In this document: positions 10,295 to 13,739 of the stretch, in pieces | Layout of the letters: each line of letters starts with the position of its first letter | Numbering within the stretch: position 1 is the stretch's first letter | DNA from: Rhodospirillaceae bacterium | GTDB taxonomy: Bacteria > Pseudomonadota > Alphaproteobacteria > Rhodospirillales > Casp-alpha2 | Length of the DNA stretch: 64,000 nt | Assembly (NCBI GenBank): GCA_018665815.1 | Contig: JABJBP010000070.1 | Coordinates: 1 to 64,000 of the forward strand | Direction: 5' to 3' | Notes under the pieces: generated by a model | What the model saw: the letters and a program-made list of their open reading frames with translations, nothing else | The model's database searches: none | Told to the model about the DNA's origin: nothing | Program-made: the position numbers and the translations under genes

Positions 10295-11422
10295 TCAGTG
10301 AAGTTCCGCCCGTAACTTTTGCCGATAGAGATCGATGGGTACCATTTCGCCTTTCTGCTGAATGTACCAAAACTGCCATCCGTTGCAGGCTGGCGCTTTT
10401 TGTACAAAGGCGCCGACTTGATGAATAGAGCCGCGGAACCCATCGGTAATTAGTGTCCCATCCGCGCGCACACGAGCGGAATGTCGCCCGCGCTGATCTG
10501 TAAGAACCTGGCCTGGTTGCAGCATGCCCCGCTCAACCAACCATCCAAATGGAATACGAGGTTGTTCTTTTTTTGATTCAATTTTCAACACGTCTTCCTC
10601 TTGTATTCGATTAACCTTAGAAATGCGGTCTTCGGCCAACGCAGCGTAATCTGGGTCGCGTTCGATACCCACGTAATGGCGCCCGAGTTTTTTAGCGACG
10701 GCGCCCGTCGTGCCACTGCCAAAAAACGGATCGAGCACAATGTCGTCAACGTTCGTTGAGGCAATAATGGCGCGGTACAACAGCGCTTCGGGTTTTTGCG
10801 TGGGATGCGCTTTTTTACCATCAATCTTCAAGCGTTCACGACCGGTGCATAACGGCATCAGCCAGTCTGAGCGCATTTGCAAATCGTCATTCAGCGCCTT
10901 CATGGATTCGTAATTGAAACGATATTTGGATTCTTTTGATCGCGCGCACCAAATCAACGTTTCATGGGCGTTGGTGAAACGCCGCCCGCGAAAATTCGGC
11001 ATAGGGTTGGTTTTGCGCCAAATGACGTCATTCAACATCCAAAAACCTAAATCTTGCAAGGCGGTGCCGACACGGAAAATATTGTGATAGCTGCCGATCA
11101 CCCAAAGCGAACCATTGGGCTTAAGGACCCGACGTGCACCTTCAAGCCATTCGCGTGTGAACTGATCGTAAGTGGCGAAACTGTCGAAGCGATCCCAATC
11201 GTTATCGACGCCGTCAACGCGTGAATTGTTCGGCCGGTGCAGTTCGCCTTCCAGCTGAAGATTGTAGGGGGGATCGGCAAATACCATGTCGACGCTGGCT
11301 TCCGGCAGCGACGCCAATTGCTCCATGCAATCACCCATGAGAATGCTATCGGCGTATGCCGGCAGCGGCGCGGGTGCCGACGGAGCAGTACTTGCCCGTT
11401 TACTTTTATGATCTCTGCCCAT
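10295..11422 (-). CDS. ccrM: Cell-cycle GANTC adenine-N6 DNA methyltransferase CcrM
   Basis: A 375-residue beta-class methyltransferase that methylates adenine in GANTC. Catalytic motif IV is DPPYNLQL (50-57) and the AdoMet-binding FxGxG motif is [10 protein letters not shown] (231-240). The C-terminal ~80-residue domain special to CcrM follows ([19 protein letters not shown] ... [13 protein letters not shown]). That C-terminal domain and the flanking motifs are what separate CcrM from restriction-linked methylases; no restriction gene is nearby. In Caulobacter and relatives it marks replication state and controls cell-cycle promoters. The upstream DNA carries a strong cluster of GANTC sites, suggesting autoregulation by methylation. 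Confidence 0.96.
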
Positions 11423-11447
11423 AGTCCGGGCAGCATGGAGAAGCCAG

Positions 11448-11531
11448 GAGTCGCCGTCAAGAACGAAATGGAATCAATGAGTTAGAAGAGATTCGGCGCT
11501 AGATATGGAGTCCCGGAGTCAGTCCGGACTC
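11448..11531 (-). promoter_or_regulatory. Cluster of six GANTC sites in the ccrM upstream region
   Basis: GANTC occurs at 11448, 11471, 11490, 11508, 11516 and 11527, six sites in 84 bp against an expectation of about one per 256 bp. Five lie in the gap between ccrM and rnhB; the last is at the 3' end of rnhB, next to the palindrome AGTCCGGACT (11521-11530). In Caulobacter the ccrM promoter contains GANTC sites whose methylation represses it, so this is the likely control region of ccrM. I could not identify a clear CtrA site. Confidence 0.6.
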
Positions 11532-12142
11532 AAGATGTTGCGGATCGGCGCGAAGCTCCGGCGATGTTCAGGCGTGACACCTAGACGGGCCAGAGCGTTT
11601 TGGTGTTCGCGCGTACCATACCCAGCGTTGTGCTCCCATCCATATCCTGGATAGCGCTCATCCAGCGCTACCATAATTCGATCACGGGTGACTTTCGCGA
11701 CGATTGACGCCGCCGCGATCGACAGGCTTCTGGAGTCCCCTTTGACGACGCATTCCAATTCGCAATTCAAGTCCGGCAGCCGATTGCCGTCAACCAGGGC
11801 GAAATCCGGCGACGGCTCGCCCAGATCACTGACCGCGCGGGCCATTGCCAACATTGTCGCCTGAAGGATATTGAGATGATCAATCTCCGCCACATCGGCT
11901 TCACCGACGCCGATCCTCGCGACCCCTTCAAGGGCACCGAACAATTCTTCGCGGGCACGTGGCTTTAATTTCTTTGAATCATCGAGACGGCTCAACAAGT
12001 CTTTCGGAATGATCTCCGGGTCCAAGACGACCGCGCCGGCAACCACTGGGCCGGCCCAAGGTCCTCGCCCGGCTTCATCAATCCCGACAACGGCATCAGC
12101 ACCTGTCGCCCATGCGCTTTTTTCGAATTGCCAATCAGGCAT
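11519..12142 (-). CDS. rnhB: Ribonuclease HII
   Basis: This 207-residue endonuclease cleaves the RNA strand of RNA-DNA hybrids and starts ribonucleotide excision repair. The N-terminal catalytic motif VVGIDEAGRGPWAGPVVAGAV carries D22 and E23. DDSKKLKPRAREELF, the ALVDGN aspartate and AAASIVAKVTRDRIM complete the RNase HII set, and the C-terminal GYGTREHQNAL segment is also present. It overlaps the antiporter gene by 8 bp at its start, so the two are probably one transcript, and it is followed by ccrM in the same direction, as in several alphaproteobacteria. Confidence 0.97.
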   Translation of the reverse strand: MPDWQFEKSAWATGADAVVGIDEAGRGPWAGPVVAGAVVLDPEIIPKDLLSRLDDSKKLKPRAREELFGALEGVARIGVGEADVAEIDHLNILQATMLAMARAVSDLGEPSPDFALVDGNRLPDLNCELECVVKGDSRSLSIAAASIVAKVTRDRIMVALDERYPGYGWEHNAGYGTREHQNALARLGVTPEHRRSFAPIRNILSPD

Positions 12143-13739
12143 TCTTCCGCCTTGGTCGTGGTGATTTAGCGACGCGCTTCACCGGTTTTTTCTTGGATTG
12201 CGCTTTCTTTGGTGGCGTTTTCTTTTTGGGGGCAGTTTTCGTAACGTGCCGTTTTCTCTTCACTGGAACCGGCTCGGCATCGATTTGAACAGGCGCCTTT
12301 TTGGGCGCTTCGGGCGACTTCAAGTCGAGCTCCAGGGGTAAAATTTCAACCTTGGCAACGCTTGTGTCTTTGGCGGAAGGCGTCGTTGGCGAGATTGGCT
12401 CTGCGGCCTTAGACCCCTTCTCCCGCCGGCGTTTTGCACGCCGGCGCCGGACCCAGAGGGCGGCGATTCGGAGTTGGCGCTGCCAGCCTGAGCGGGCATC
12501 GCCAATCGCCTCGGACACCAATTCGACTTCCGGACCATACATCAACCGCATCAGTTCGCGGGACTCCGTAATCCCGTAACTGACAAGCAATTGCAGGCGC
12601 CGGCCGGCAATCACCCAAATCGGACTGAGCCCCAGGCTCATCACCGTCACCGCAACAACGAGACGGCCCTCACTCTCGGAAATGACCCCTACATCGGTTG
12701 CGATCACCGCCATCAAAAATGAAAACTCACCAACCTGGGAGATCATAATTCCGGCCAGAAAAGCATGATGCCAAGCCTGCCCGAGAAGCCCCAACGCCAA
12801 CACGCTGATCACCGTTTTGAATACCGCGATCAACATAAACAACGCCAAGACAAGTGTCAGATTATCCCAAATGTAATCAAGATCGATCAGCAAACCGATG
12901 GATAGAAAGAACACCATCATCAGCACGCTCTGGATCGGTTGCGTCGCCTGCAACATGGAATGCCGGTTAGTGCTGTTGCCGATAATCAACCCCGCCAAAA
13001 AAGCGCCGTAGGCCGCCGATAAACCCAACACACCGGACAAGGCCGCGAGGCCAAAGCAAAATCCAAGCGCACTGAGTGGTAGAAGGTCGGCATGCCCGGC
13101 AACGACCTCGGAAAAAGGCAAGCGGACCTTTCGACCACCACTGAGATACAATATCAATCCCACCAGGAAGATAACCGAAAACAGAACCTTCGGCACCACC
13201 AGCCAATTAACTTCCTCGCCGCCCATGGCGTTGATGGACAGCATCATGGGTACAACAGCCAAATCCTGGGCGATCAATACGCCAACGGCAATGCGCCCCG
13301 TCCGCGTTCTAAGCTCCCCCAAGCCCTCCAAAATTTTCACGGCAACGGCCGTTGATGATATGGCAACGACAAATCCAAATAAAATTGCCGCCGGCGTACT
13401 CCAGCCGATGACCTTCGCTGCAATCAGCATGACGCCGACGCTCGCCGAAATCTGAATAACCGTCGTCGCCAGGGCCAAACGCCAAACCCGCCGGAAGGCG
13501 CGTAGCGACAATTCCATGCCAATCAAAAACAACAAAAGCAGGACGCCCAGTTCGGCTAGGCTGTCGATGCCGCTCCGATCCTGAACCAACGCCAGCCCGG
13601 ACGGGCCCAGCAACACGCCGGCCACGATATATCCGACGATGGCGGGTTGGCGGACTCGCTCCATAAGCACGCCGCAAATCAGCGCGGCGAGGGCAACGGC
13701 GGCAATTCCCGTGAGCGCGGTATGAGCTTGAGATTCCAT
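12135..13739 (-). CDS. Cation:proton antiporter (CPA2/KefB-like) with basic C-terminal tail
   Basis: A 534-residue membrane protein. Residues ~1-385 form a CPA2 Na+/H+ exchanger domain of about 12-13 helices, including GYIVAGVLLGPSGLAL, LFLIGMELSLRAFRRVWRLA, SSTAVAVKILEGLGELRT and a well-conserved SQVGEFSFLMAVIA helix. There is no TrkA-N nucleotide-binding domain after it, unlike KefB/KefC. Instead there is an arginine-rich stretch (WVRRRRAKRRREKGSK) and then a tail of ~60 residues rich in Lys, Pro and Ala that resembles histone-H1-like C termini. Probable role: K+ or Na+ efflux in exchange for H+. The start codon ATG 13739 precedes helix 1 directly. Confidence 0.85.
   Translation of the reverse strand: MESQAHTALTGIAAVALAALICGVLMERVRQPAIVGYIVAGVLLGPSGLALVQDRSGIDSLAELGVLLLLFLIGMELSLRAFRRVWRLALATTVIQISASVGVMLIAAKVIGWSTPAAILFGFVVAISSTAVAVKILEGLGELRTRTGRIAVGVLIAQDLAVVPMMLSINAMGGEEVNWLVVPKVLFSVIFLVGLILYLSGGRKVRLPFSEVVAGHADLLPLSALGFCFGLAALSGVLGLSAAYGAFLAGLIIGNSTNRHSMLQATQPIQSVLMMVFFLSIGLLIDLDYIWDNLTLVLALFMLIAVFKTVISVLALGLLGQAWHHAFLAGIMISQVGEFSFLMAVIATDVGVISESEGRLVVAVTVMSLGLSPIWVIAGRRLQLLVSYGITESRELMRLMYGPEVELVSEAIGDARSGWQRQLRIAALWVRRRRAKRRREKGSKAAEPISPTTPSAKDTSVAKVEILPLELDLKSPEAPKKAPVQIDAEPVPVKRKRHVTKTAPKKKTPPKKAQSKKKPVKRVAKSPRPRRKNA

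Follow-up and report, generated by a model that had tools for sequence, protein, structure and literature searches.

A positionally conserved GANTC array upstream of ccrM in a Rhodospirillaceae bacterium as a putative methylation-responsive promoter region

The ccrM gene of a Rhodospirillaceae bacterium is preceded by six closely spaced GANTC sites in the stretch of 64,000 nucleotides that was analysed (contig JABJBP010000070.1, hereafter the window). The feature is real and it is conserved in related bacteria. The conserved trait is position, with one or two sites in the spacer between the -35 and -10 elements plus one at -50, while the number six is incidental. The array is probably a methylation-responsive ccrM promoter region, which would allow methylation-dependent autoregulation of the gene via a sigma-70 promoter; promoter function and methylation sensitivity are both deduced from sequence patterns. 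The arrangement has a fixed promoter layout that includes target sites of the encoded enzyme itself, and its double-site form is nearly private to ccrM and occurs in many families. This design points to methylation autoregulation as an old and general feature of the cell-cycle clock.

GANTC cluster and gene neighbourhood

The six GANTC sites that the preliminary description had reported for the segment 11448-11531 are present and start at positions 11448, 11471, 11490, 11508, 11516 and 11527. Its statement that the cluster is far above chance (about 0.3 expected) is also confirmed, the expected number per 84 bp being 0.30 from base composition and 0.095 from the GANTC density of the window. 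The window contains 76 GANTC in total, compared with an average of 279 after dinucleotide shuffling; it is depleted in the motif, which makes the cluster stand out more, and the depletion fits GANTC methylation by CcrM. The next tightest run of six sites in the window spans 267 bp. When the 76 sites were placed at random, under a null that ignores the higher GANTC richness between genes, six sites fell within 84 bp or less in 1 of 20,000 trials. Among 24 pentamers of the same form, GANTC is present in 6 copies in the segment and each of the other 23 in 0 or 1. No other 84-bp stretch with more than three GANTC was detected either in the window or in a genome sample of 578,859 bp (40 contig stretches, about 15% of the genome, 845 GANTC), where the maximum of 3 per 84 bp was reached 4 times.

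The gene downstream of the cluster (10295..11422, minus strand) encodes a DNA adenine methyltransferase of 375 amino acids. Its earlier assignment as ccrM is borne out by the N6/N4 methylase domain (N6_N4_Mtase, PF01555), the C-terminal RAMA domain (PF18755) and the similarity to CcrM, as evident from the close match to PDB 6pbd, the solved Caulobacter enzyme (E 6.8e-154). The product also matches NF050803 with an E value of 6.8e-190 and 630 bits, below the curated cut-off of 830; this cut-off is uninformative here, since none of the 385 genomes of the class passes it and the Caulobacter vibrioides control genome fails as well in a six-frame search. The nearest named records are metagenome-assembled genomes labelled Rhodospirillaceae and Magnetovibrio, with CcrM identities of 79-81%. 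A CcrM match was found in 57 of 61 genomes including that of the window, although one of these (G037) has a short weak match only and the gene is cut by contig ends in three (G004, G014 and G041).

The upstream gene, rnhB (ribonuclease HII; 11519..12142, minus strand), is on the same strand as ccrM. The preliminary description had located one GANTC at the end of rnhB and the rest in the gap. Its placement in rnhB and the gap holds and its count does not: the site at 11527-11531 lies wholly within rnhB, that at 11516-11520 overlaps the stop codon, and four are in the gap. A CPA2-type antiporter gene is located at 12135-13739 of the window; among NCBIfam models it matches MagA best, at a score under the curated cut-off.

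Core promoter and conservation of the sites

Alignment of relatives revealed a conserved block directly before the start codon in most ccrM upstream regions. In the window, this block contains a putative -35 element, TTGACG (11455..11460, minus strand), and a putative -10 element, CATGCT (11432..11437, minus strand), 17 bp apart, followed by a gap of 9 nt to the ATG (11423..11431, minus strand). Thus ccrM appears to be preceded by a core promoter of the sigma-70 type whose -10 box is weak. Given the usual start distance, transcription would begin about 3 nt before the ccrM ATG and yield a near-leaderless mRNA. The distance from the first T of TTGAC to the ATG is 35-38 nt in 59 of 83 loci.

The conservation of this core was evaluated in 129 ccrM upstream regions, which remained after removal of a locus lacking the N-terminus (L054) and of loci with identical upstream DNA. 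The TTGAC-CANNNT core with 17-bp spacing was recorded in 105 of the 129 by a promoter score computed without the GANTC columns; the other 24 fell below the score and were excluded from further counts. Removal of loci that are at least 80% alike reduced the 105 to 72 non-redundant loci. TTGAC is present in 72/72 and CANNNT in 71/72 of these, figures that are partly built in, as both columns belong to the score itself. An earlier anchor on the last TTGAC was replaced by this GANTC-blind score, since it misplaced some loci in which TTGAC also occurs inside TTGACTC at -16.

With sites numbered from the inferred promoter core, the one at -27 (11448..11452, minus strand) is located in the spacer between the -35 and -10 elements, and is found at the same place in 83 of the 105 loci and 55 of the 72 non-redundant ones. 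It lies 8 bases past the first T of TTGAC within the 17-bp spacer, the placement expected of a GcrA/CcrM-regulated sigma-70 promoter. The site at -50 (11471..11475, minus strand) is retained in 63/105 and 44/72 loci, respectively. A further spacer position, -16, is occupied in 40 of the 72 loci; this site, common elsewhere, is absent from the promoter of the window, which has -27 and -50. At least one of the three positions carries GANTC in 68 of 72 non-redundant loci, and none of them is occupied in 4 of the 105 passing loci.

At -27, the N letter is free (A in 19, G in 17, C in 13 and T in 6 of the non-redundant loci), while the four fixed letters G, A, T and C are all intact in 55 of the 72, show a single mismatch in 1 and at least two mismatches in 16. 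A tree of 68 CcrM proteins (four of the 72 being too short) requires at least 12 changes in the presence of the -27 site and, among the 53 members having the site, at least 20 changes of its N letter. By chance alone, a break in one of the four fixed letters would be expected more often than a change of the single N letter. A varying N with four fixed letters kept is the pattern predicted if a methylation target is under selection. For the -50 site, N is A or T in most cases and the flanking bases are conserved (TAA..CATTGAWTCCATTTA), which suggests that a protein may also bind there.

Further upstream, the sites of 113 loci, placed with the cruder last-TTGAC anchor, gather near -69, -87 to -90, -95 to -97 and -106 to -108, and the other four sites of the window lie in or at the edge of these peaks. 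For the site at -69 (11490..11494, minus strand), there are 35 GANTC at offsets -34/-33 in the 113 loci. The site at -87 (11508..11512, minus strand) is weakly conserved, being only at the edge of the -55/-54 offset peak with its exact offset in 2/113 loci. The site at -95, which overlaps the rnhB TGA stop (11516..11520, minus strand), recurs at the same offset in 13/113, and the site at -106, in the last rnhB codons (11527..11531, minus strand), in 7/113, within the offset peak from -71 to -74. The gene rnhB is directly upstream of ccrM in 116 loci and ends in TGA in 71 of them; this TGA forms part of a GANTC in 49 of the 71, as it does at 11516-11521 in the window, against 4.4 expected. The frequent overlap indicates that the array often extends into the upstream gene.

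Four loci of Kiloniella and related bacteria (L109, L113-L115) contain a head-to-tail GACTCGAGTC and one further GANTC downstream of the core promoter; one of them, L109, has nine GANTC within 113 bp. A general helical phasing of the sites is not claimed: the spacer sites are 11 bp apart, but the distance from -50 to -27 is 23 bp.

The number of sites, in contrast to their position, is variable. GANTC counts in 120 bp are 6, 5, 4, 2 and 5 within the genus, and range from 0 to 9 per 200 bp across the 129 upstream regions. The proposal that six sites would give a steep switch is therefore not upheld, and the array as a counting device was rejected, the number being 2-6 within the genus. The alignment with related ccrM upstream regions that had been suggested as a check did reveal conservation of the sites in relatives. 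Of the methylation-dependent promoter envisaged earlier, what stands is an arrangement like that of known methylation-responsive promoters; the steepness ascribed to six sites falls away.

Control by CtrA or DnaA was also considered for the window and was rejected. Between 11381 and 11600 there is no CtrA full site (TTAA-N7-TTAA), nor a TTAA on either strand, and no DnaA box, as neither TTATNCACA nor TCCACA was found. Among the ccrM upstream regions of a class sample of 90 loci, TTAA-N7-TTAA is present in 3.

Distribution of the spacer pattern and of GcrA in Alphaproteobacteria

A search of 385 alphaproteobacterial genomes for the double-site pattern TTGAC-N3-GANTC-N6-GANTC-A, of whose two spacer sites the window carries one, gave 52 occurrences in 51 genomes, and its reversed control had no match in the same 385. 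Of the 52 occurrences, 46 are at ccrM, comprising 29 of 30 fetched loci with ccrM directly downstream, 14 assigned by coordinates and 3 fetched later. Of the six others, four (L365, L371, L364 and L370) are placed as follows: two lie upstream of ftsK in two genomes of the same family, one precedes a ribonucleotide reductase ORF by 286 nt, and one precedes an M23 peptidase. The remaining two lack a clear target. Genome-wide, the bacterium of the window has the strict single-site pattern at one place only, at ccrM. As a class-wide ccrM marker this pattern was rejected, being unspecific in other genomes, whereas the double-site pattern is specific: the single-site pattern occurs in 100 of the 385 genomes and its reversed control in about 19, and ccrM was found in none of 18 fetched single-site loci (the window's own apart) as compared to 12 of 12 fetched double-site loci. 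Some further single-site places are at ccrM by coordinates (G267, G434 and G357). The double-site pattern also offers an easy way to search for ccrM promoters.

CcrM is matched at an E value of 1e-60 or better in 281 of the 385 genomes. The class sample covers ccrM loci of 90 of these 281, drawn from the better-scoring matches; within this sample, the protein that matches Caulobacter CcrM best over its full length is 76% identical to it. The relaxed pattern TTGAC-N2-6-GANTC-N3-7-GANTC was recorded in 52 of the 90 loci, while the same pattern built on 23 control pentamers gave a mean of 0.09 and a maximum of 2. Downstream of TTGAC, the spacer range holds one or more GANTC in 71 of the 90 loci and none in 19.

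A gene for GcrA, the known reader and thereby the candidate one for this promoter, is present in the genome of the window (G000:C36:7022-7345; PF07750, E 6.9e-15); a second profile (A1) also matches it, though the alignment of that profile includes this protein. When GcrA status was read by hand from the Pfam search table for the 90 genomes, one weak match (G061) being taken as positive, the arrangement was not lost without GcrA, as it was found in 13 of 16 GcrA-negative and 58 of 74 GcrA-positive genomes (Fisher p 1.0). The double site was recorded in 8/16 and 44/74, respectively. The independence of the arrangement from GcrA presence weakens the case for GcrA as a necessary reader.

The absence of GcrA was examined further with the second profile, built from 21 GcrA proteins. 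It matched, as it must, two genomes whose GcrA is in the alignment. Outside the alignment, 20 Pfam-positive genomes with weak or varied Pfam scores were chosen, and the profile detected GcrA in all 20, although weakly in one. In 27 Pfam-negative genomes it detected no convincing GcrA; 26 were without a match, and the only one, in G351, is weak and stop-broken (E 0.0016). In three genome families (f138, f139 and f160), GcrA was detected in 0 of 11 sampled genomes by Pfam and by the second profile, while ccrM is present. The ccrM upstream DNA of 10 of these 11 genomes, that of G276 being left out, has the exact double site in 9 and a relaxed one in 1 (G366, by eye). For such GcrA-free lineages there is either another reader, a GcrA that is too diverged to be recognized, or a direct effect of methylation on RNA polymerase. 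They provide natural strains for examining whether methylation can affect RNA polymerase with no GcrA involved.

Proposed mechanism and comparison with known systems

According to the favoured reading, CcrM would methylate the sites of its own promoter, namely those in the spacer at -27, at -50 and further ones into the end of rnhB. Replication would leave these sites hemi-methylated until newly made CcrM restores full methylation, and the activity of the ccrM promoter would depend on whether its own locus has been replicated and re-methylated. In the organism of the window, the methylation state would most likely be read by GcrA. The favoured sign is that the promoter would be active when hemi-methylated and shut down after re-methylation. 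The five sites upstream of the -35/-10 region may act differently or not at all, because in Caulobacter GANTC outside -10/-35 goes with the lowest levels at 40-60 min, and GANTC between them with activation at 40-60 min, in the portion of that study available (PMC4287350).

Autoregulation could also proceed without a reader, if methylation within the spacer and beside the -10 box altered RNA polymerase binding or promoter opening directly, with GcrA as a later or optional addition. This is possible, if rather unlikely. Retention of the double site in the three families without detectable GcrA speaks for it, but another reader protein could have replaced GcrA there, or GcrA may be too diverged for both profiles in genomes that are mostly drafts. 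A broader proposal, that an ancient ccrM promoter shared by much of Alphaproteobacteria senses its own methyl marks directly at RNA polymerase, GcrA being a dispensable later reader, is suggested by the two spacer sites one helical turn apart that GcrA-free lineages keep; it is held with slightly more doubt still.

That an ordinary transcription factor motif happens to contain GANTC, with methylation incidental, is very unlikely. The bias to A or T and the conserved flanks at -50 do resemble a protein-binding box. Against this, N varies freely at -27, where the four fixed letters are almost always either all intact or disrupted jointly; GANTC far exceeds the other 23 like pentamers in enrichment upstream of ccrM; and the promoter of the window has no CtrA full site or DnaA box. 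Least probable of all, and hardly credible, is that chance or composition made the array an extreme case of GANTC-rich intergenic DNA. GANTC is indeed over-represented between genes in CcrM-bearing bacteria, according to the accessible text of PMC3973325; position-specific conservation across families contradicts this explanation, as does the lack of a comparable cluster in 579 kb of the genome. The methylation-responsive promoter region is retained as the preferred reading.

The background available from the cited papers, as far as their accessible text extends, is mostly from Caulobacter. Methylation-sensitive expression of ccrM and CtrA as its activator have been described there: the ccrM promoter has GANTC sites and is transcribed from hemi-methylated DNA under CtrA (PMC2217572, PMC8865702), and its transcription is described as 'most probably' methylation-dependent (PMC3973325). 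GcrA prefers methylated GANTC and protects ctrA P1 from -35 to -10 when this promoter is fully methylated; of five Caulobacter promoters tested, four were reduced in activity by 60-80% when GANTC was mutated, and the fifth stayed fully active (PMC3667746). GANTC is located at -28/-29 in ctrA P1 and at -24 in podJ P2 (PMC4287350), and the CGACTC motif of ftsZ and mipZ has a conserved GANTC needed for maximal, CcrM-dependent activity (PMC3708114). A survey of 2010 counted GANTC in 500-bp promoter regions of cell-cycle genes of the class and noted that ccrM of rhizobia often has CtrA sites; in the part of it available, no conclusion is drawn on methylation control (PMC2877005). Within the literature searched, mostly open and accessible in part, with the early Caulobacter promoter papers outside it, no description was found of a ccrM core promoter that is conserved and has spacer sites at fixed places.

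The promoter of the window resembles that of Caulobacter crescentus ccrM in having the same gene and GANTC in the promoter, a likeness that is drawn from the accessible published descriptions and not from aligned sequence. It differs in that CtrA is described as the activator of ccrM in Caulobacter, whereas the promoter of the window is without a CtrA full site. As far as the available descriptions go, its probable -27 site places it beside the GcrA-linked sigma-70 promoters of Caulobacter (ctrA P1, podJ P2 and mipZ), which have GANTC between -35 and -10. Those promoters drive other genes, while here the driven gene is that of the methyltransferase itself, with up to three fixed sites; and unlike them, the ccrM arrangement is kept in some lineages without detectable GcrA. 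The alignment of the ftsZ/mipZ CGACTC motif, in the text available, covers Caulobacter and four close relatives, whereas the ccrM arrangement extends over many families of the class.
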